Notes: a model not told the origin generated them from the sequence alone. 17,955 bases of DNA from Nitrospirae bacterium CG2_30_53_67 (GCA_001873285.1 MNYV01000111.1:1-17955), one strand, 5' to 3'; counted from the first letter of the stretch, positions 2,654 to 17,483 are shown. Program-made: numbers and translations.

Positions 2654-2940
<287 letters not shown>

Positions 2941-2941
<1 letters not shown>

Positions 2942-3309
2942 TGAACATCAAACTGGATGAGAACATGCCTACTGCTCTCGCAGAAATGCTCCTGTCAGAA
3001 GGTTATAATGTGTCCACCGTTTCTGAAGAAAACCTTTCGGGAGCAAGTGATGCCCTGCTCTTGGAAAAGGCTACAGAAGAGAATCGTCTATTGATCACAT
3101 TTGATGTTGATTTTGGGAACATCCGGACCTTTCCGTTCGGATCGCACGCTGGCATTGTGGTTTTCCGCCTTCGGGATCAGCGCTGGGCTGTCTTGAAAGA
3201 GCCTGCCAAACGGTTGGTCACATCCGGTTTATTGGAGCGTCTTCAACGCGGCTTAGCAGTCGTGGATGAAAACCGCGTACGACTGCGGTTCAAAGGACCC
3301 AAGAAATGA
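2941..3309 (+). CDS. DUF5615 PIN-like toxin candidate
   Basis: This 122-residue protein matches the DUF5615 (Mut7-C/PIN-like) family: KLDENMP at residues 4-10, an E at about 41 (LLEKA) and the TFDVDFGN acidic motif near residue 54-61. The acidic residues are placed as in PIN nucleases, which bind a divalent metal and cleave RNA. In this family, DUF433-DUF5615 pairs are annotated as putative toxin-antitoxin systems. The start overlaps the DUF433 stop by one base, and the SD for this gene lies inside the upstream ORF. The 3' end runs directly into repeat debris. Ribonuclease activity has not been shown for most members, so toxin function is an inference. Confidence 0.82.
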
Positions 3310-7549: not shown

Positions 7550-7590
7550 CGAATTTGCACAGCTATGCGTTTATATGGCATTAATCTACG

Positions 7591-8034
7591 ATGCTATTAG
7601 ACAAGATGATGATTATTAAAATGCTCGTGATCGTCATCGCCATCGCTCAAGTTGCGGCTGTCGCAACAAGTTTGGACGAGACGATTATTATTAAGCCGCT
7701 CGTGATCGTCATCGCCATCGCTCAAGTTACGGCTCTCGCAGCAGGTTTGAAGGGCTCAGTTCGCTTGGGTTCCTGGATCAGCCTTCTTTGCCCCTTGATT
7801 CTTCTCGGTATTTACCTTACCGGCATGGGACCAATAATATCATGGAGCGACTTCACACACCACGTACAGAAAATTTTTCCTCTCTTTGCCATCCATGTGG
7901 TTAGTATTCTTTTGTTACTTCTGCTCTGTCAAACACGCGGACGACCCCCACAGTTATTCTGGATTGTCTGGACCGTTAATTCGTACTTATGCACTTTAAT
8001 GATCTATGCAGTCTTTTTTTTCAGGCTCTTTTAG
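7591..8034 (+). CDS. Small four-helix membrane protein, tandem copy 1
   Basis: I do not recognise this family. The 147-residue protein is almost entirely hydrophobic, with about four to five membrane segments. The first two helices are internal duplicates: LVIVIAIAQV at residues 12-21 recurs exactly at 37-46, a 25-residue (75-bp) offset, and each copy is preceded by I-I-K. A charged hinge (LKGSVRLGSW, from about 53) leads to SLLCPLILLGIYL. A second hinge, CQTRGRPPQ, lies before the last helix. No clear Shine-Dalgarno precedes ATG 7591, so M6 or M7 remain possible starts. The next gene is a paralogue, 465 bp downstream start to start. Base composition looks poorer in G+C than in the flanking core genes, which fits an accessory origin. 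Confidence 0.65.
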   Translation: MLLDKMMIIKMLVIVIAIAQVAAVATSLDETIIIKPLVIVIAIAQVTALAAGLKGSVRLGSWISLLCPLILLGIYLTGMGPIISWSDFTHHVQKIFPLFAIHVVSILLLLLLCQTRGRPPQLFWIVWTVNSYLCTLMIYAVFFFRLF

Positions 8035-8055
8035 GAACAAAGGCATTTATCTACT

Positions 8056-8493
8056 ATGCTATTAGATAAGATGATGATTATTAAAATGCTCGTGATAATC
8101 ATCGCCATCGTTCAAGTTATGGCTGTCCAGACAGGTTTGGAAGAGATGATTATTATTAAGCCGCTCGTGATCGTCATCGCCATCGCTCAAGTTGCGGCTC
8201 TCGCAGCAGGTTTGAAGGGCTCAGTTCGCTTGGGTTCCTGGATCAGCCTTCTTTGCCCCTTGATTCTTCTCGGTATTTACTTTACCAACATGAGACGCAT
8301 GCAATCATGGAGCAACCTCAAACCGATAGAATTTTCCTTCCTTGCTATCAATGTGGTTACTATTCCTTTGTTACTTCTGCTCTGTCAAACACGCGGACGA
8401 CCCCCACAGTTGTTGTTCTGGGCTGTCTGGACCGTTAATTCGTGCTTATGCACTATAATGATCTATGCAGCCTTTTTTTCCAGAGTCTTTTAG
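8056..8493 (+). CDS. Small four-helix membrane protein, tandem copy 2
   Basis: This 145-residue paralogue of the preceding gene has the same layout, with two similar N-terminal helices, the LKGSVRLGSW hinge and the CQTRGRPPQ hinge. Divergence is uneven. About 125 bp covering helix 2 and the LKGS hinge are nearly identical to copy 1. The first helix has changed (LVIIIAIVQV) and the loop near residues 75-100 differs strongly, including length changes. AAAGG lies 12 bases before the ATG, which is long for a ribosome site. The retained reading frame through two indel differences suggests that both copies are, or recently were, under selection as proteins. Function is unknown. Confidence 0.65.
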   Translation: MLLDKMMIIKMLVIIIAIVQVMAVQTGLEEMIIIKPLVIVIAIAQVAALAAGLKGSVRLGSWISLLCPLILLGIYFTNMRRMQSWSNLKPIEFSFLAINVVTIPLLLLLCQTRGRPPQLLFWAVWTVNSCLCTIMIYAAFFSRVF

Positions 8494-8615
8494 GAACAAA
8501 GGGGACAAAGGGGAGGGAACAAAGGGGACGCAACCCTTTTCATGTCTCGCAACCAATTAGACCGATCTTCTCTTGTTTCCGATAGGGGAATAGGGACACA
8601 GAGGATAGGCGGGTT
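8494..8615. terminator. Spacer between convergent genes with a possible terminator
   Basis: GGAACAAAGGGGAC is present twice (8493-8506 and 8516-8529). AAAGGG (8521-8526) pairs with CCCTTT (8534-8539), followed by a fourth T, giving a weak stem that could act on both strands between the converging membrane-protein and GAF genes. The stem is short, so terminator function is tentative. The sequence also resembles decayed repeat flanks seen at 3310-3440. Confidence 0.3.
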
Positions 8616-10946
8616 TCAGTTTCTCGATCCGAGGCGAAGCCGGTTGGCCTGGTGGAGGATGGTATCCAGATCGGCGCCGTCTTCGGGGTAGAGGGCGTAC
8701 CCCAGTTTGAAGTTCAGTTCCACGGCGGACAGGGCGGACCCCGGCTGTTTCTTTTTTTTGCGGATCGCACGGATCAGCCTGATGCTGAGATCTCGGATCT
8801 GCTCTACAGACTCCGGGAAAAGGATGCTGAATTTCAACGGGCCGGTGCGGGCCAGGGTGTCGTATTCCCGGATCTTTTCCTTAAGGATGTCGCAGACCTC
8901 GATGAGAATGTTGTTCCGCATCTCCACGTCGTACTGTTCGATGCCCGGTTTCTGATAGCTCCAGCAGAGGGTCAGGAGAATGAATCCCCTCTTGTATCGC
9001 TTAGAGCGGTTGATCTCGTTTTCAATCTCTTTATGGAAGGCGGTTTCATTGGGGAGGCCGGTGAGCTTGTCGTAGTTCAGGAAGATCCTGGACTGGTCGC
9101 TCCCCCGGGCATTGACCAGGGCCTTCTCCACGTAGAGGACGAATTTTTTAAAGATCTCCATATCCTCGTCGCCGAAGGAGGTCGCGTGGAAGGAGCCCTT
9201 GGGGATCTTGTCATAGATGGAGAGGACCCCCTGGACGATCCCGTTCCCCATGACGGGGAGGGCGATCACGGACTTGACCACCCTGCCGAATCTTTCGTAA
9301 CCTTTTTTCTCTCTCAGGTCCAGGATATGAACAGGCCCCTTCGTCTGCTCGGCCTCTGATGAGATCTCCTTGTCCAGTTCCATGATCTTGTCACGGATTT
9401 CCTCCTCCCACATGGAGTAGGTCGAGCGGATCTTCATCTCCCCGCCTTTCTCCCGAAGACGAAGGATGCAGCCGTCCGCATCCATGATCATGGCCGCTGA
9501 GGGGGGAATCAACTCCATGAGCTTGTTAAGATCAATGATGGAGAGGATGTTGATCCCGGCTTCGTTGATGGCCTCAATCTTCGTCGCCCGCAGGTTTGCG
9601 CTGTCTTCCTTCTGCGCGCTCTTGACGGTATCGGAGAGATTCCATCCGATCTCACGGAGCAGGGACTCCTCGTCCTCGGCAAGACCCCTGGGCGAAATCA
9701 CCTGGATGTTCATGACGCCGGTGATCTGGCCTTCCGAAACCAGGGGGATGGACATGAACGCCTTTTTCGCCTTGGAATCCAGGCTCGGGTGCTCCTTGAG
9801 GATCACCACTTCCTGCTCTTTCGCCGCCCAGCCGTCTATGCCTTCGTCCAGCAGTATCCTGTAATGGTCCGATGCCGTGAAGTTTCTGAGACTGGTTGCC
9901 TTCAGCGCCAGTTCCTTGGTGTTCTTGTCAAAGAGATAAATGGAGCAGACGCTTTTCTGAAAATGTTCTGAAATGGTCTTGCAGACTCTGCTTAAGCGTT
10001 CATCGAGCGGATCCTGAGAGTTGAGAATCTGGTTGAGCTCCTTCCAGATCACAAAGGTTTGCGCATTCTCCTTGAGGACTTGGTACTCCTGGGACTTGAG
10101 CAGGATCTCTGCATCGAAGGCGGCCAGCTTCGAGATGAAGGAGAGGTCCTCGCCGGTGAAACCGTCAATGCTTTTCAGGTTGTTGAGATTCAGGACGCCT
10201 ACCGTCGAACCGTTGATGGTCAGGGGAACACAAAGCGCCGATTTGATCTCCTCACGCTCGCGCAGGATCTTGAAGACGCTGTCGTCCGCCTTGCCGGAGA
10301 GGAGCAGAGGCTTACCTTCCAGGGCCACCTTGCCGGCGACCCCCTCCCCAAGCTTGCATCGGATGCTGGGGATCACTTCCGCAGGGATTCCCATGGCCAC
10401 TTCAACCTTCAAGACATTTTCCATGGGGTCCAGCAGCATGAGTGAGCCGTTGTCGGCCCCGGTGGATTCGATGGCCACCTTCAGGATCAGGGAGGTCACC
10501 TGTTTTCTGTCCGTGGTGAGGTTGACCGCTTCCACGATCTCGTTTAAGCTTGTGAGGAGCTTGGAATACCTGCTGCCTCCCTCAGGGATTTTCTCCTCCT
10601 CTTTTCCCTTGTATTCCCAGAGAAGGCGCGCGCTGAGAGCGCTGATGATCTCCACGGACTTGAATTCCTGTTTTTCCAGGAAGGCCCGTGCCTGAGGATC
10701 CGAAGAGGCGTCGATGATGATGCCGAGGCCGTCTTCCGACAGGAGGTCTTTCCATTCAGAGCAGATTCGGATGTCATACTTTTGCGCCAGCCGGAACCCG
10801 AGTTCATCGAGCTTGTAGATCATGGCGTCCTTGTTGGGTTCCACAATCAGCTTGACCTGGACAGTCGGGTCTTTCTCAAGGAGCGGAAGGAGGCCCAATG
10901 CCTGCTTATTTCCTCCGACGATGGCGATTTTCTTTCTCTGTTTCAT
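8616..10946 (-). CDS. Rossmann-like / triple-GAF / degenerate-GGDEF signalling protein
   Basis: This 776-residue cytoplasmic protein has no membrane segments. Residues 1-110 look like a nucleotide-binding Rossmann fold (KIAIVGGNKQALGLL, later GIIIDASSD). Three GAF-type sensor domains follow at about 126-287, 297-442 and 455-612, the first with GSLMLLD and GEGVAGKVA. Residues 625-776 are a GGDEF-domain homologue, with DKLTGLPN at 626-633 and the terminal QANRLRLGSRN. The active-site loop that should read GGDEF reads GPLKF (702-706), and the usual metal-binding LDIDxFK is LTLCWSY. Diguanylate cyclase activity is therefore not expected, and a GTP-binding or purely structural role is more likely. 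It is the second gene of an operon, 17 bp after the pseudo-receiver gene. Its 3' end is repeated at 3798-3827. Confidence 0.85.
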   Translation of the reverse strand: MKQRKKIAIVGGNKQALGLLPLLEKDPTVQVKLIVEPNKDAMIYKLDELGFRLAQKYDIRICSEWKDLLSEDGLGIIIDASSDPQARAFLEKQEFKSVEIISALSARLLWEYKGKEEEKIPEGGSRYSKLLTSLNEIVEAVNLTTDRKQVTSLILKVAIESTGADNGSLMLLDPMENVLKVEVAMGIPAEVIPSIRCKLGEGVAGKVALEGKPLLLSGKADDSVFKILREREEIKSALCVPLTINGSTVGVLNLNNLKSIDGFTGEDLSFISKLAAFDAEILLKSQEYQVLKENAQTFVIWKELNQILNSQDPLDERLSRVCKTISEHFQKSVCSIYLFDKNTKELALKATSLRNFTASDHYRILLDEGIDGWAAKEQEVVILKEHPSLDSKAKKAFMSIPLVSEGQITGVMNIQVISPRGLAEDEESLLREIGWNLSDTVKSAQKEDSANLRATKIEAINEAGINILSIIDLNKLMELIPPSAAMIMDADGCILRLREKGGEMKIRSTYSMWEEEIRDKIMELDKEISSEAEQTKGPVHILDLREKKGYERFGRVVKSVIALPVMGNGIVQGVLSIYDKIPKGSFHATSFGDEDMEIFKKFVLYVEKALVNARGSDQSRIFLNYDKLTGLPNETAFHKEIENEINRSKRYKRGFILLTLCWSYQKPGIEQYDVEMRNNILIEVCDILKEKIREYDTLARTGPLKFSILFPESVEQIRDLSIRLIRAIRKKKKQPGSALSAVELNFKLGYALYPEDGADLDTILHQANRLRLGSRN

Positions 10947-10963
10947 AGGTCCCGTTGAGAGAG

Positions 10964-11803
10964 TCAGGGTTTGCGGTGCTCTTCAATGACCCCTTTTTCG
11001 AAGAGTTCCTTGATCCCCTCGCTATGAAGCAACCTGCCGGGGGCAGCCGATGCGGTCTTGCCCTGGGTGTTGTTGGCCATGGAGATCTTGTTTTCGTCCA
11101 GCCAGCACATGGCTTCCATGACCAGGTTGGTCGGAGAGAGATGGATGGACCGGATCTTCGATGTGATATGGTGATGAATGATGAAGATTCCATCCTGTAT
11201 CGAGAGGAGATCGAAGAGGGCCTCCTTGCCGAAGAGCCTCCCGCACACGGCATGGATCACTTCTCCACCCTCGAAGTAGACCCTTCCTTCCTTGCCTTCA
11301 CCTTCGATCTGAATGACGGCCGTCTTTCTTCCCATGTCCAGAAGCTGTATCAGGTCGATCAGATGGATATCTTTCAGGTTCCCCTTGATGCCGTCATCCT
11401 TGGTCAGGGTGGAAATACTGGAAAGGTTGGTTCTCCGCAGGACCGCCTTGATTCTGGCGATGAGTTCGTTCTCGTTGAAAGGTTTTGTGATGTAATCGTC
11501 GGCCCCTGCCTCCAGGGTGGAGATCTTGTCATGGATCAAGGTCCTGGAGGTCAGGAAGATGAAAGGGGTGTTCGAGATTTCAGGCGTCTTCCGGACCATC
11601 CGCATGAACTCCCTTCCATCCATATCCGCAAGGTTGATCTCGGAAAGGATCAGGTCGGGCTTGTTCTTGACGGTCAACTGCATGGCGAGTTCAAAACTGT
11701 GCGCAAAGTGAATCACGAAGCCGTTCTGGAGCAGGGCCTCTTTCACGATCCGAAGTGTTTGTGCGTCACTCTCTGCAACAAGAATCTCGTGGCCGATCAG
11801 CAT
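10964..11803 (-). CDS. Pseudo-receiver with PATAN (DUF4388) domain
   Basis: This 279-residue cytoplasmic response-regulator-like protein has a receiver fold at residues 1-125 and a DUF4388/PATAN domain at about 138-250 (GNLKDIHLIDLIQLL, then GRVYFEGGEVIHA). The receiver keeps T85 and K107, but the phospho-acceptor aspartate is E55 (LILSEINLADMDG) and the acidic pair is E11/S12. It cannot be phosphorylated in the normal way and may mimic the phosphorylated state. PATAN-receiver proteins of cyanobacteria act by protein-protein contact in type IV pilus control, so a similar binding role is plausible here but unproven. A frame-extending ATG at 11863 exists, but it lies at or upstream of the transcription start predicted from the promoter at 11866-11894, so ATG 11803 is chosen. 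SD support is weak at either start. Confidence 0.85.
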   Translation of the reverse strand: MLIGHEILVAESDAQTLRIVKEALLQNGFVIHFAHSFELAMQLTVKNKPDLILSEINLADMDGREFMRMVRKTPEISNTPFIFLTSRTLIHDKISTLEAGADDYITKPFNENELIARIKAVLRRTNLSSISTLTKDDGIKGNLKDIHLIDLIQLLDMGRKTAVIQIEGEGKEGRVYFEGGEVIHAVCGRLFGKEALFDLLSIQDGIFIIHHHITSKIRSIHLSPTNLVMEAMCWLDENKISMANNTQGKTASAAPGRLLHSEGIKELFEKGVIEEHRKP

Positions 11804-11865
11804 GGCGGATCCCGTCAGGAACGTGTTGAAAAACCTTAAAAATATCAAATATTTATTCTTCATTC

Positions 11866-11894
11866 ATTTTATGAAATTCCAGTTGGATTGTCAA
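11866..11894 (-). promoter_or_regulatory. Sigma70-type promoter for the pseudo-receiver/GAF operon
   Basis: Read on the minus strand, TTGACA (11889-11894, perfect -35) is followed by a 17-bp spacer and TAAAAT (11866-11871, five of six -10 matches). Transcription should begin near 11858-11860, leaving a leader of about 55 nt before ATG 11803. Confidence 0.75.
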
Positions 11895-11937
11895 TATTTT
11901 TGGAACGTTTGGAAAATTCCGGTTTAGATCCGGTCAG

Positions 11938-11951
11938 AACTCTTAAGAGTT
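11938..11951. promoter_or_regulatory. Perfect 14-bp palindrome in the divergent promoter region
   Basis: AACTCTTAAGAGTT is a perfect palindrome about 45 bp upstream of the minus-strand -35 and about 60 bp upstream of the plus-strand -35. A dimeric regulator could bind there and act on both transcription units. No regulator gene is visible nearby. Confidence 0.4.
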
Positions 11952-12013
11952 TCCAAAGGCCGGCAGACCTGGACTGAAAGGCCGCTTCTTGATGGGCCCT
12001 TTGTTTTCATCTG

Positions 12014-12042
12014 TTGCCTTTATACAGGGATCATTATATAAT
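12014..12042 (+). promoter_or_regulatory. Sigma70-type promoter for the TPR-like membrane protein
   Basis: TTGCCT (12014-12019, four of six -35 matches), a 17-bp spacer and a perfect TATAAT (12037-12042) predict transcription starting near 12050, about 55 nt before ATG 12106. The region after the -10 is A/T-rich. Confidence 0.6.
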
Positions 12043-12105
12043 ATAATAAAAAACAGGATGGCAGAGGTCTTGATTCACAACGTCATATCCAATGAGTGAT
12101 TTCCT

Positions 12106-13398
12106 ATGCGTGCTGTCAAAAGTTTTATCGGCATCTTCATCGTTGCGGTTTCCCTTATTCTTCTTTTTTTCCCTGCGGGCGGACACGCTGAGACCCTGAT
12201 CGTTCTCAAGGATGGGCGCCGGATCAAGGTAGAGAATTTCTGGCGGGAAAATGAGATGGTGAAGTATCAGAGCTATGGGGGGATCGTGGGTATCCCGGGT
12301 GAGGACGTGGAACGGATCATCACGCCTGATATGGTTGCATTCGATGAAGCACAGGGGGTCCATACCATAGATGCCTATGAGCAGTTCCTGAGGAAATATC
12401 CCCAGAGTTCACTCGTTGCCGATGCGCGTGACCGGATCAGCGCGTTGACATTTGAAAAGGTCAAACAGATCCATTCGGCCCAGGCCTATCTCGACTATAT
12501 CAGGAGAAATCCCCAAAGCGCCTTCCTTCAGGAGGCCAAGGAGAGGGCCGAAGATCTGGTTTTTCAGGAAGCCGTCGTCATCAATCAATTGGATCAGTTT
12601 CAGGAGTATCTTGAAATCTATCCTGAAGGAAAGTTCTCAAGGGCGGCACGGAAGGCCGTGGAGATCATTAAATACGACGCCGTCAAACAAAGCGTGAACA
12701 TCCCCGATATCGAGACCTACCTGCACGACTATCCGCAGAGCGCCTACCGGCGGGGTCTCGAAAACCGCCTGGCCCAATTGGTTTCCGAATCAGAGGCCAA
12801 GGCCAAGGCGAAAAAGGAACAGGAACTGAAAAAAAAGAAGCTTCAGGAATTGGAGGCAAAGAAGAGGCACAGGTTCTGGATGGTCTTGTTATCCGTGGCC
12901 GGCCTTCTATCTGTTTCCGTTCCCGCGGCCCTGTTTTTCGTTAAGAAACGAAAAGCGGGCATGACCGCATCGGGCAAGGGGGTCACGGAATCCAAGAAAG
13001 GGCTGCCCCAGGAGGAATACGGGCAGAAGTCCCCTTTCAAGAAGGAGCCTGTCCGTTATGAGGACCTGATCAGCACGCCGCGCAACAGGGACCCTCAGTC
13101 CGCTTCGGGTTCAGAAACGACCCTGGCATTGGACCATAAGACGCAGTTCTCCCTTCCCGAACCCGAGAAAAAGGGAGGATCGTCTTCAGAAGAAGAAACG
13201 GATCCGTTAAAGGATCAGTTTGAGAATGCTTCGTTTGCAAAAGAGGAAACCGCCATTCCTATGGGTTACAAAGAAGACAAGGGGCCTGACGAGAAACCGT
13301 CTTCATACGAAAGGACGATTGATCTTTCGGATCATGAGACCGATTTCAATCTGGAATTGGAGGATGTTCCGGAGGAGACCGAAGGGAAAGAGACTTAG
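12106..13398 (+). CDS. Membrane-anchored TPR-like repeat protein with acidic tail
   Basis: I do not know a named family for this 430-residue protein, but its layout is clear. A signal peptide (1-28, ending GHA) is followed by a small beta domain at 29-72 (TLIVLKDGRRIKVENFW...GGIVGIPGEDVERI). Four helical-hairpin repeats with an exact 37-residue spacing start at 90, 127, 164 and 201, each with a core like AYxxFLRKYPQS. A Lys/Glu/Ala-rich coiled coil (230-256) precedes a membrane helix (about 257-279), a KKRK stop-transfer and a polar acidic tail (283-430). The repeats should face the periplasm and the tail the cytoplasm. The tail holds two related motifs (338-350 and 403-416) of the form T-[LI]-x-L-D-H-x-T-x-F-x-L. 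The gene is divergent from the pseudo-receiver operon. No strong SD is seen. Its TAG stop lies on the edge of a MITE-like element. Confidence 0.75.
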   Translation: MRAVKSFIGIFIVAVSLILLFFPAGGHAETLIVLKDGRRIKVENFWRENEMVKYQSYGGIVGIPGEDVERIITPDMVAFDEAQGVHTIDAYEQFLRKYPQSSLVADARDRISALTFEKVKQIHSAQAYLDYIRRNPQSAFLQEAKERAEDLVFQEAVVINQLDQFQEYLEIYPEGKFSRAARKAVEIIKYDAVKQSVNIPDIETYLHDYPQSAYRRGLENRLAQLVSESEAKAKAKKEQELKKKKLQELEAKKRHRFWMVLLSVAGLLSVSVPAALFFVKKRKAGMTASGKGVTESKKGLPQEEYGQKSPFKKEPVRYEDLISTPRNRDPQSASGSETTLALDHKTQFSLPEPEKKGGSSSEEETDPLKDQFENASFAKEETAIPMGYKEDKGPDEKPSSYERTIDLSDHETDFNLELEDVPEETEGKET

Positions 13399-13563
13399 TG
13401 GCCCTATTCGTAAATACGGTGGCATTCGAGTGCCGTAGGGGGGCGGTCGGATCAAAGTTTCGCTCCTTGCGGTGTACCAAAGGGGTACGCCTCAGTCGCG
13501 CGCTTTAATGAAACCGCCCTACGACCCTCTCGGTACGTCACCATATTTACGAACAGGACCACT
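13397..13563 (+). mobile_element. MITE-like inverted-repeat element, copy A
   Basis: This 167-bp element has terminal inverted repeats of about 23 bp, with outer ends AGTGGCCCTATTCGTAAATA and its partner ending ACAGGACCACT. Inner segments GTAGGGGGGCGGT and ACCGCCCTACG are also complementary, so the whole element can fold into a long hairpin. It has no coding capacity. A second copy in opposite orientation lies at 14992-15177. No target duplication is obvious. The element begins inside the TAG stop codon of the upstream gene. Confidence 0.75.
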
Positions 13564-13586: not shown

Positions 13587-13799
13587 GGGTGTGCGGCAAA
13601 TTTATGGGTAAATATTTCTCTGGCAGCGTCATTCCCCGACCCCCGATCGTAGTCGAGGGCAGGCTCGATCGGGGAATCCATGGTTCGACAAGCTCACCAT
13701 GACAATTGTCACCCTGAGCCTGTCGAAGGGTGGATTGTCCGGTCGGGCCTGTCCTCCGATCCCCCGATCCAGTCGGAGGACAGGCATTTTTGTCGCAGA
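13587..13799. repeat. Composite hairpin repeat block flanked by 12-bp direct repeats
   Basis: CCCCGCAGTTTT occurs on both sides (13575-13586 and 13800-13811). Between them are GTCATTCCCCGAC...GGGGAATCCA, GTTCGACAAGCTCACCATGAC, GTCACCCTGAGCCTGTCGAA and a 12-bp stem at its end. These are cores of well-known non-coding intergenic repeats. The direct repeats suggest insertion into a single CCCCGCAGTTTT target. The minus-strand ORF across the block is a repeat translation, not a gene. Confidence 0.55.
13748..13791 (+). terminator. Probable rho-independent terminator
   Basis: A perfect 12-bp G+C-rich stem (13748-13759 with 13773-13784) has a 13-nt loop and is followed by CATTTTT. It would end transcription entering from the 12106-13398 gene and insulate the asd promoter 28 bp downstream. 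It also forms part of the repeat block. Confidence 0.6.
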
Positions 13800-13952: not shown

Positions 13953-14963
13953 ATGCAAAAGAAAGACCGGTATCATGTTGCCGTTGTGGGTGCAACCGGC
14001 GCCGTAGGCAACGAGATGATCTCCATCCTCGATGAGAGGAAATTTCCGGTGGGCGATCTGCGTCTTCTGGCTTCCTCGAGGTCCATAGGGAAAACGCTTT
14101 CCTTTAAGGGCAGGGATCATGATGTGGAGGAGTTGAAAGAGACCTCGTTTGAAGGGGTGGATCTTGCTCTTTTTTCCGCCGGAGCATCCAGGAGTCTTCA
14201 ATTCGCGCCCATCGCCGTAAAAAGCGGGGCCGTGGTCGTGGATAACAGCAGCGCATTCCGTACGGATCCCGATATCCCTCTGGTGGTTCCGGAGGTGAAT
14301 GCGCCGGCCCTGGCGCGCCACCATGGGATCATCGCCAATCCCAACTGCTCCACCATCCAGATGGTTGTTGCCTTGAAGCCGATCCATGACGTGGCGAAGA
14401 TCCGAAGGATCGTGGTGACCACGTTCCAGGCGGTCTCCGGCACGGGGCAGAAGGCCATGGATGAACTTTTGGATCAGACCCGTTCCCTGCTCTCTTTCAG
14501 GGAAGTCGTCCACAAGGTCTATCCCCATCAGATCGCCTTCAACTGTCTGCCGCACATCGACGTATTTCTTCCGAACGGTTATTCCAAAGAAGAGATGAAG
14601 ATGGTGAACGAGACGAGAAAGATTCTGGAAGACGACAGCATCGGTGTTACGGCGACCACGGTCCGGGTTCCGGTCTTCCGCTGTCATTCCGAATCGGTCA
14701 ATATCCAGACCGAAAAGAAGATTACGGCCGGCCAGGCGAGGGAATTGCTGGCGTATGCCGAAGGAGTCTGTGTGCTGGACGATCCGGCAAACCATATCTA
14801 CCCCATGGCCATCGACGCGGCCGGCAAGGACGAGACCTTTGTCGGAAGGATACGGGAAGACGAATCCATAGAGAACGGGCTCAACCTGTGGATTGTTTCG
14901 GACAATCTCCGGAAAGGCGCCGCCTTGAATGCCGTTCAGATCGCCGAACGCCTTATTTCCTGA
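13953..14963 (+). CDS. asd: Aspartate-semialdehyde dehydrogenase
   Basis: Asd reduces aspartyl-4-phosphate to aspartate-4-semialdehyde with NADPH, the branch point to lysine/diaminopimelate, threonine and methionine. The 336-residue length is typical. The dinucleotide-binding motif GATGAVG is at residues 13-19. The catalytic cysteine C132 sits in NPNCST, and the active-site histidine H245 in RCHSES. VVDNSSAFR and the QAVSGTGQKA segment are also family signatures. AGGAG (13943-13947) lies five bases before the ATG. The gene has its own promoter and stands alone, enclosed by two inverted MITE-like elements. No U-rich terminator is seen after the stop, so read-through toward tldD is possible. 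Confidence 0.95.
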   Translation: MQKKDRYHVAVVGATGAVGNEMISILDERKFPVGDLRLLASSRSIGKTLSFKGRDHDVEELKETSFEGVDLALFSAGASRSLQFAPIAVKSGAVVVDNSSAFRTDPDIPLVVPEVNAPALARHHGIIANPNCSTIQMVVALKPIHDVAKIRRIVVTTFQAVSGTGQKAMDELLDQTRSLLSFREVVHKVYPHQIAFNCLPHIDVFLPNGYSKEEMKMVNETRKILEDDSIGVTATTVRVPVFRCHSESVNIQTEKKITAGQARELLAYAEGVCVLDDPANHIYPMAIDAAGKDETFVGRIREDESIENGLNLWIVSDNLRKGAALNAVQIAERLIS

Positions 14964-15177: not shown

Positions 15178-15190
15178 AAGGTTTCAGGCC

Positions 15191-16603
15191 ATGATATTCC
15201 CCAAAGAAAAAATCCCCGGCATCCTGAAAAAGGCCCTGAGCAGGGGTGGGGATTTCGCAGAATGCTATTTTGAAAACGGCGGTCATTCTTCTGTGATCCT
15301 TGAGGACCAAAAGATAGAAAAGGTCATCACGGGGAGCAGCAGAGGCGTGGGGCTTAGGGTTATTTCCGGCCTGCGGACCGTCTATGCCTACTCCAACGAG
15401 ACCTCTCCCCGATCCCTGATGGAGATGGCGGGCATGGTCAGCCGGGCCGTTCAGCGAGGAGCCGCGGAAAAGGTCATCCCACTGGTTTCTAAGACGCCCC
15501 CTTTTGAGATGCCGGTCTTGACCGATCCTGTTTCGGTTCCGATCCGGGCCAAAGTCGATCTGGCGCTCTCCGCCGATGCCGCCGTGAGAAGGGTTGATCC
15601 GCGGATCCGCCAGTCCAAGGTGCTGATCTTAGACGGCCGCAAGGAGGTTTTGATCGCCAATTCATTGGGCGAACTGGCCGAGGATGAGCGAGTCTACCTT
15701 CTTGCGCATGTTCAGGCTGTGGCCGGGGACGGGAACCTGATCCAGACGGGGGCGGAAACCCTGGGAGGCGCTGTGGGATATGAACTCTTCCAGGCCGAGC
15801 CCCTGGAAGAGGCCGCCCGGCGCGCGGCGGTCCGGGCCGTTCTCATGCTTTTCGCCTCTCCTGCGACTGCAGGCAGGATGCCCGTGGTTCTTTCCTCCAG
15901 GGCCGGGGGGACCATGATCCACGAGGCGGTGGGGCACGGTCTCGAGGCCGATCTGGTTCAGCAGAGGCTCTCGGTTTACAGCGGCCGAGTGGGAGATTGT
16001 ATTGCATCGCCCACGATCTCCGTGGTGGACGATTCCACGGTTCCTTATAAAAGAGGCTCTTTCCGGTTTGACGATGAAGGGACTCCGTCCCGGCGCACGG
16101 TCTTGATCGAGCAGGGCGTGCTCAAGGGATACCTCTATGACCGTCTGTCCGCCATGAAGGACGGGGCTGCATCCACAGGGAACGGAAGGCGGGAGTCCTT
16201 CCGCTGCCGTCCGATCCCCCGGATGACCAATACGATGATCCTGCCCGGGCGTGAGGACCCTGAGGAGATTATACGGGCCACGGCCTCAGGACTCTTTGTC
16301 GTCCGTATGGGGGGAGGACAGGTGAACACGGTCAACGGAGATTTTGTCTTTGAGGTAGGGGAGGGGTATCGGATTGAAAATGGCCGGATCGGAGAACCGG
16401 TGAGGGGGGCGACCCTGACAGGGAACGGACCGGCCGTTCTGATGCAGATTGACCGGGTCGGGAACGATCTGGGGTATGCGGTCGGGACCTGCGGCAAGGA
16501 CGGACAGGGGGCGCCGGTCGCGGATGCGCAGCCCACGGTCCGGATTCCGGAGATGACGGTCGGCGGGGAGGTCGGAGATGGGACTCGACGCGCGGCACGA
16601 TGA
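15191..16603 (+). CDS. tldD: TldD-type metalloprotease
   Basis: This 470-residue member of the TldD/PmbA (U62) family is the zinc-bearing subunit of a cytoplasmic TldD-TldE heterodimer that cleaves unfolded peptides. In enterobacteria it processes microcin and CcdA. The metal motif HEAVGH lies at 244-249 in [14 protein letters not shown]434 in VGTCGKDGQ, typical of TldD rather than TldE, supplies a further ligand. [17 protein letters not shown] and [12 protein letters not shown] are family blocks. The open frame extends upstream through MITE copy B, but homology starts at [14 protein letters not shown] (15178-15181) lies nine bases before ATG 15191. The end, beyond the usual MTVGG, adds about 11 residues and overlaps the next gene by 26 nt. 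No tldE is in the window. Confidence 0.92.
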
Positions 16604-17483
16604 GCTGGAAGCATTGAACCGGCGGCTTGAAGAGATGATCCTGCAGAGGACGCAGGAACTCATTGAAAAGAGCAGGGAGCTGGAACGGCAGAACCGGGAG
16701 CTTGCCGAGGCCAACATCCGGATACGGGAGGCGGATAAGCGCAAGTCCGAGTTTCTGGCCAATATCTCTCACGAGCTTAGGACCCCCATGAACTCGATCC
16801 TGGGCTACACCAACATGCTGCTGAAGGGGAATTACGGGTACATGAACGAGCAGCAGCAGAAGAGCCTGAGGAAGGTCTATGAGAACGCCCAGCACCTGAT
16901 GCATATCTTAAATGATCTCCTTGATCTTTCCCATCTTGAGGTCGGCAGGCTCCTGCTGAAAATCAGCCCGGTGAGCGTGAGAAAGGTCGTCTTGTCCTCT
17001 ATGGTCAGCGTGGAGCCCATTCTTATGGGCCGTGTGCTGACGGTGGACCACGATATTCCCCCGGATATCCCGTTCGTGCTTGCCGATGAGGTCCGGATCA
17101 GGGAGGTCCTGATCAACCTGATCAGCAACGCGATCAAGTTTACGGCGGACAACGGAAGGGTTACGGTCCGGGCGAATGTCCTCAGCGTCAGGGGCGACGG
17201 CGATGCAAAAGAGATGGTGGAGATACACGTGGAGGATACCGGCATCGGGATTGATCAGAAGAACCATGAGATCATCTTCGACCAGTTCCGACAGCTCAAT
17301 GAACACAAAAAGCCGGAGGAAAGAGGGTCGGGGCTCGGTCTTTTTATCAGCAAGAGGCTGGTGGAGGTGCATGGAGGGATGATCCGGGTCCAGAGCGAAC
17401 CGGGGAAAGGGAGCATCTTCTCATTCACCCTGCCTTCGGCTGGGCCGGGGAAAAGGCCGGTTGCGGAAGATCCGTCCGCATGA
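16578..17483 (+). CDS. Sensorless cytoplasmic histidine kinase
   Basis: This 301-residue two-component kinase has no membrane segment or recognisable sensor domain. Residues 1-55 form a Glu/Arg-rich coiled coil ([20 protein letters not shown]). The HisKA domain has the phospho-acceptor H65 in [10 protein letters not shown]. The ATPase domain has N-box NLISN (180-184), G1 box DTGIGI (220-225) and G2 box GSGLGL (250-255), all intact, so catalysis is expected. Input probably arrives through the coiled coil from a partner protein. The start lies inside the end of tldD in another frame. GGGGAGG (16564-16570), seven bases upstream, supports ATG 16578 and suggests co-transcription with tldD. The receiver gene at 17787 is a possible partner. 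Confidence 0.9.

Follow-up and report, generated by a model that had tools for sequence, protein, structure and literature searches.

A conserved gene block in the window (the whole stretch of DNA analysed, a 17,955-base contig of a 2.36-Mb draft genome) contains an operon for two signalling proteins that have lost their catalytic residues. One, of 776 residues, carries a degenerate GGDEF domain in which an intact RxxD motif, the putative c-di-GMP I-site, is kept in all six genomes of the family; the other joins a pseudo-receiver to a PATAN domain. Divergent from this operon lies the gene for a predicted envelope protein. The genes are called here GAF (776-residue GAF/GGDEF protein), REC (REC-PATAN protein) and MEM (membrane protein). 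Tentatively, and with somewhat less than an even chance, the operon is read as encoding a non-catalytic receptor for signals together with an output partner, with the divergent membrane protein as the likely anchor. Within this reading, support is best for the non-catalytic nature of the operon's signalling proteins and for the GGDEF protein as a candidate c-di-GMP receptor, and weakest for docking to MEM.

The gene block and its conservation

Three open reading frames were confirmed, at 8616-10946 and 10964-11863 on the minus strand and at 12106-13398 on the plus strand. The phylum sample consisted of eight genomes, six of one family (three genera) and two of a sister family. By tblastn and open reading frames, the order GAF <- REC <- / -> MEM -> asd -> tldD -> histidine kinase was found intact in all six family genomes, and the H, N and G boxes of the kinase are intact in each. 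The outer flanks in the window's genus are unlike those of the other two genera, while the block itself is kept. In the two sister-family genomes neither MEM nor the Rossmann-GAF protein was found, and the REC-PATAN query recovered general receivers only.

The sequence-only reading had proposed a catalytically silent three-gene module, an idea that unlinked genes in relatives would have undone. The three genes are together in every family member, but the conserved block is wider, adding asd, tldD and the intact histidine kinase, which had been missed. Silence likewise describes the GAF/GGDEF and REC-PATAN proteins and not the block as a whole, and a wholly silent module was rejected on account of the syntenic kinase. 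Synteny supports the block as a unit and is no proof of a functional link; linkage alone is weak evidence of function, because the comparison covers six genomes only and the synteny extends to asd and tldD. Outside the window's genus, the GAF gene faces a PASTA - ABC1 kinase - TPR/peptidase cluster in convergent orientation (L036, 487-5232); in the window's genus this cluster does not adjoin the module.

Table 1. Features of the block, with positions counted from the first base of the window.
Feature	Position	Strand	Basis or remark
Protein with Rossmann, three GAF and degenerate GGDEF domains, 776 aa	8616..10946	-	Pfam GAF x3 and GGDEF
N-terminal Rossmann-like domain	10605..10946	-	Homology to N-terminal domains of other proteins
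Putative I-site RxxD and degenerate GGDEF loop, IREYDTLARTGP, residues 692-703	8838..8873	-	Invariant in six genomes
Pseudo-receiver and PATAN (DUF4388) protein, 279 aa from likely start	10964..11803	-	Pfam, orthologue alignment, promoter
REC-PATAN/GAF operon promoter, TTGACA-17-TAAAAT	11866..11894	-	Found by scan
14-bp palindrome, AACTCTTAAGAGTT	11938..11951	none	Not conserved
Promoter-like site of MEM, TTGCCT-17-TATAAT	12014..12042	+	Found by scan
MEM: predicted signal peptide, YgdR-like barrel, four 37-residue hairpins, transmembrane helix, disordered acidic tail	12106..13398	+	AlphaFold; orthologues in 6/6
Conserved MEM tail motif, TIDLSDHETDFNLELED	13315..13365	+	Invariant in six orthologues
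Aspartate-semialdehyde dehydrogenase (asd)	13953..14963	+	Syntenic 6/6
TldD/PmbA-family protein	15188..16603	+	Syntenic 6/6
Soluble histidine kinase	16578..17483	+	H, N, G boxes intact; syntenic 6/6

A degenerate GGDEF domain with a retained RxxD

Orthologues of the GAF protein are 67-86% identical in the five relatives. The GGDEF signature reads GPLKF in the window and GPxKF in all six genomes. In an alignment with active cyclases, among them one of Rossmann-GAF-GGEEF architecture from a different lineage (L053), each of the six was found to have lost GG(D/E)EF, the GHxxGD motif and the metal-binding Asp, so that none has the signature or the metal-binding Asp by which an active GGDEF domain is recognised. 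The degeneracy claimed earlier therefore holds, and the residues are not restored in close homologues. What the sequence-only reading overlooked is the intact RxxD in IREYDTLARTGP, which is invariant in the six genomes. The RxxD keeps the canonical spacing of five residues to the signature (REYD-TLART-GPLKF), and in the alignment it matches the RxxD-x5-GG(D/E)EF of active enzymes. An inactive GGDEF domain with an intact RxxD five residues before its signature is the sequence pattern of the degenerate-GGDEF receptors, and the protein has it. Binding of c-di-GMP by a degenerate GGDEF domain was reported for PopA, via an intact I-site (PMC5052742), and for SgmT (PMC4877007).

Across the six genomes IREYDTLARTGP is also the longest invariant run of the 776-residue protein. 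A run of this length (12 residues) has P = 0.006 in within-domain shuffles and occurs in 14% of whole-protein shuffles, a statistic that is supportive, not decisive. A structural role may be what preserves the R and D of RxxD and the hairpin after them. Judged from its sequence, the GGDEF protein is a moderately supported candidate c-di-GMP receptor, and the retained I-site strengthens the earlier "binding-only" reading; that the protein does bind c-di-GMP is about evenly balanced between yes and no. The genome has 13 GGDEF and 5 PilZ matches, which favours the proposed explanation.

It is improbable, though arguable from the GAF domains, that the protein binds no c-di-GMP and uses its GGDEF domain as a dimerisation platform only, the Rossmann and GAF domains sensing, for example, redox or a cyclic nucleotide. 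Conservation is highest in GAF1 (68% invariant vs 47% for GGDEF), the best solved match of the protein is a cGMP-phosphodiesterase GAF, and in M. xanthus the GGDEF protein TmoK can neither synthesise nor bind c-di-GMP (PMC4877007). Against a mere platform stands the RxxD, which is kept in all six genomes, within the longest invariant run, where every catalytic feature examined was lost. A confident full-length model of the protein was not obtained (pLDDT 37).

No Pfam family matched the Rossmann domain of the window protein. Its homologues elsewhere form the N-termini of active GGDEF, GGDEF-HD-GYP-like and sigma-54 AAA+ proteins, and among relatives of another lineage there is a Rossmann-GAF-GGDEF protein with intact catalytic residues.

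The pseudo-receiver and its PATAN domain

The REC product combines a receiver with a PATAN domain (Response_reg, PF00072, E=3.9e-22; DUF4388, PF14332, E=7.8e-23), the architecture of PATAN-CheY regulators of type IV pili. Its start, earlier placed at 11863, is almost certainly 11803, because the -10 box of the operon promoter reaches to 11866, with the first ATG three bases further on, and because alignment with the relatives begins at the internal Met.

The phospho-acceptor position is Glu in four of the six genomes, the window included (genera g1 and g3), and Asp in two (g2), whereas Ser replaces the second metal-binding acid in every one of the six, g2 included; the receiver K is kept, and the T is kept or replaced by Ser. 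The D-to-E change reported earlier is thus right for the window and for four of the six, and does not extend to g2. All six are nevertheless pseudo-receivers, since this class is defined by missing key phosphotransfer residues (PMC12632262). According to the same review, pseudo-receivers often carry a non-acidic residue at the second metal-binding position, which true receivers do not, and a D-to-E change characterises the pseudo-receivers of plants and some of those of fungi. Asp was found in five of eight distant REC-PATAN proteins, and a tree gave no direction for the ancestral state.

The syntenic kinase raises a two-component explanation, in which it partners the receiver: the g2 receivers would be phosphorylated, and the Glu elsewhere would mimic phosphorylation and lock the PATAN output on, leaving it to be set only by partner binding. 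The conserved H, N and G boxes of the kinase, the alternation of Asp and Glu between genera with the T/S and K positions kept, and the precedent of plant and fungal D-to-E replacements all point that way. The Ser at the second metal-binding position, g2 included, points the other way, as do the conservation of the kinase even where the receiver cannot be phosphorylated and its location three genes beyond MEM on the other strand; such an output is decidedly improbable. Whichever way the receiver works, a single pseudo-receiver that has Asp in one genus but Glu in the other two, and is accompanied in every case by the same dead-GGDEF protein and by an intact kinase, offers a natural experiment on pseudo-receiver switching, which in bacteria was called a mystery in a 2025 review (PMC12632262).

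As to output, PATAN matches number 10-17 per genome in the family vs one weak match in each sister-family genome. Synechocystis PATAN regulators contact the type IV pilus motor PilB (PMC10519157), as in PixE-PilB1 (PMC7690835), and the genome encodes four strong PilB/GspE-type ATPases; the PATAN domain of the window may likewise contact a target. A sequence search found no solved PATAN relative.

The predicted envelope protein

Pfam gave MEM weak BamD/TPR matches. An AlphaFold model built with three sequences reached pLDDT ~90 over residues 30-260 and predicts a small beta barrel, four helical hairpins and a long helix through the transmembrane segment. The second helices of the hairpins begin at 88, 125, 162 and 199, an exact 37-residue period, and the tail, predicted disordered, has 35 D/E vs 19 K/R and is acidic in all six orthologues; the repeats and acidic tail described earlier were thus confirmed. 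The topology is probably that of a signal peptide, periplasmic repeats and a cytoplasmic tail, with the caveat that basic residues flank the transmembrane helix on both sides.

The hairpins resemble BamD (VIA Z up to 8.4; Foldseek E 7e-5; PF13525 E 5.5e-6, just over the cut-off) and so have the BamD-type TPR fold, and the barrel gives structural matches to the small SH3-like barrel of YgdR/DUF903 (Z 5.2-5.8 over ~50 residues) with no Pfam hit to YgdI/YgdR (DUF903). These matches are best taken as fold likenesses of the model and not as membership, since Z values in such a range can reflect common arrangements. BamD is an outer-membrane lipoprotein, whereas MEM has a C-terminal transmembrane helix and tail, and the window protein has no lipobox, there being no Cys in its signal-peptide region. 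MEM also differs from the TPR proteins BamD/CpoB and the small lipoproteins YgdI/YgdR in that both folds are fused in a single protein, predicted to sit in the inner membrane with its tail in the cytoplasm, and in having no bam neighbours in the window.

The tail keeps RYED and DLSDxxTD...ELE motifs, with D406, L407, S408, D409, T412, D413, E417, L418 and E419 (TIDLSDHETDFNLELED) invariant in the six orthologues. In the six genomes the DLSDxxTD...ELE motif was found in no other protein at E<=1, and the idea of a motif common to other proteins, with a common reader, was rejected.

The intergenic region

The operon promoter, TTGACA-17-TAnAAT, is conserved in all six genomes. Upstream of MEM, TATAAT occurs in five of the six, as a -35/-10 pair in three (the window and two relatives) and as a visible TATAAT in two more; it was not found in the closest relative (L035), where ~2.3 kb with a Gp49-like/HTH pair (9992-12308) lies between the divergent REC and MEM. 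Given this insertion between the two genes, co-regulation of MEM with the operon cannot be assumed. The palindrome described earlier between the divergent promoters is real and somewhat unusual, present in 1.7% of shuffles of the intergenic region, but it is absent from all five relatives, and the insertion splits the promoters in one of them. A shared operator is therefore unsupported, and the palindrome was rejected in that role.

These observations bear on whether MEM belongs with the operon at all. The two may be independent units, the operon a c-di-GMP/ligand effector and MEM an unrelated envelope TPR factor (a scaffold or a helper in assembly) that simply stays alongside, as asd and tldD do; this is a serious possibility, if on the doubtful side. 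The unconserved palindrome, the insertion between MEM and REC in the closest relative and the presence of asd and tldD in the syntenic block agree with it, as does the much faster divergence of MEM (35-63% identity vs 67-86% for the GAF protein). Two independent units would not readily account for a block retained across three genera despite differing outer flanks, nor for the phyletic pattern that MEM shares with the GAF protein among the eight phylum members, and the conserved linear motifs of the MEM tail need some cytoplasmic partner. The relay from the envelope proposed in the sequence-only reading is thus one that we still infer, because the synteny includes housekeeping asd and tldD and the inter-promoter palindrome is unconserved.

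Proposed mechanism and relation to known systems

If the operon does encode a receptor and its output partner, the 776-residue protein would sense small molecules via its Rossmann and GAF domains and bind c-di-GMP at the retained I-site of the dead GGDEF domain. Ligand binding would alter its shape and its interaction with REC-PATAN, a pseudo-receiver whose PATAN domain would contact a target. MEM would most likely be the inner-membrane anchor, its periplasmic barrel and BamD-like repeats binding a partner there, and the cytoplasmic pair could be recruited by short motifs conserved in the disordered acidic tail, a docking that we rate as rather doubtful. The FimV cytosolic region binds the diguanylate cyclase DgcP (PMC7033161), so an envelope-docking arrangement of this kind exists.

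PopA, SgmT and PelD share with the 776-residue protein a dead GGDEF active site and attached sensory or receiver domains; here the attached parts are a Rossmann and triple-GAF array, the GPxKF loop is conserved, and the partner of this candidate receptor is a PATAN pseudo-receiver. The Rossmann-GAF-GGDEF and Rossmann-AAA+ (sigma-54) proteins of other phyla have a homologous N-terminal Rossmann domain, one of them with GAF and GGDEF domains as well, but keep catalytic GG(D/E)EF or AAA+ outputs. In the cyanobacterial output adaptors PixE, PixG and LsiR, PATAN (DUF4388) is likewise joined to a CheY-like receiver, whereas in REC-PATAN the receiver precedes PATAN and is a pseudo-receiver, with no che-like genes in the neighbourhood. 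FimV/HubP resembles MEM in its N-terminal periplasmic part, single transmembrane helix and acidic cytoplasmic region, and FimV recruits a diguanylate cyclase. The MEM repeats, by contrast, are predicted to be periplasmic and are BamD-like; no LysM was found in MEM (Pfam, E<=1), nor the FimV C-terminal TPR, its tail being disordered without a Pfam domain. MEM may be at most analogous to FimV.

A bolder form of the proposal, and an unlikely one, is a lineage-specific envelope hub in which short motifs in the acidic tail of an inner-membrane BamD/YgdR-like sensor recruit a complex of the pseudo-receiver-PATAN protein and the dead-GGDEF c-di-GMP receptor. If true, a single output would integrate the state of the envelope, a ligand in the cytoplasm and c-di-GMP, with neither phosphotransfer nor enzymatic turnover. 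The family adds a candidate c-di-GMP effector architecture and a possible FimV-like envelope anchor in a poorly studied phylum.

Other features of the window

The stretch 13397-13563 is a 167-bp element with imperfect 25-nt terminal inverted repeats that belongs to a very abundant MITE-like family, with ~40 full-length copies of 86-94% identity among the matches listed (40 scored of 101 candidates) in the 2.36-Mb genome. About 80 bases from it lies a second, palindromic repeat (13640-13770) with 54-nt arms and a few dozen genome copies. A small membrane-protein gene is duplicated in tandem at 7577-8502, the copies being 83-90% identical in DNA and the first without a Pfam family, and at 2693-3309 a DUF433-DUF5615 (PIN-like) pair was found in a toxin-antitoxin-like arrangement.
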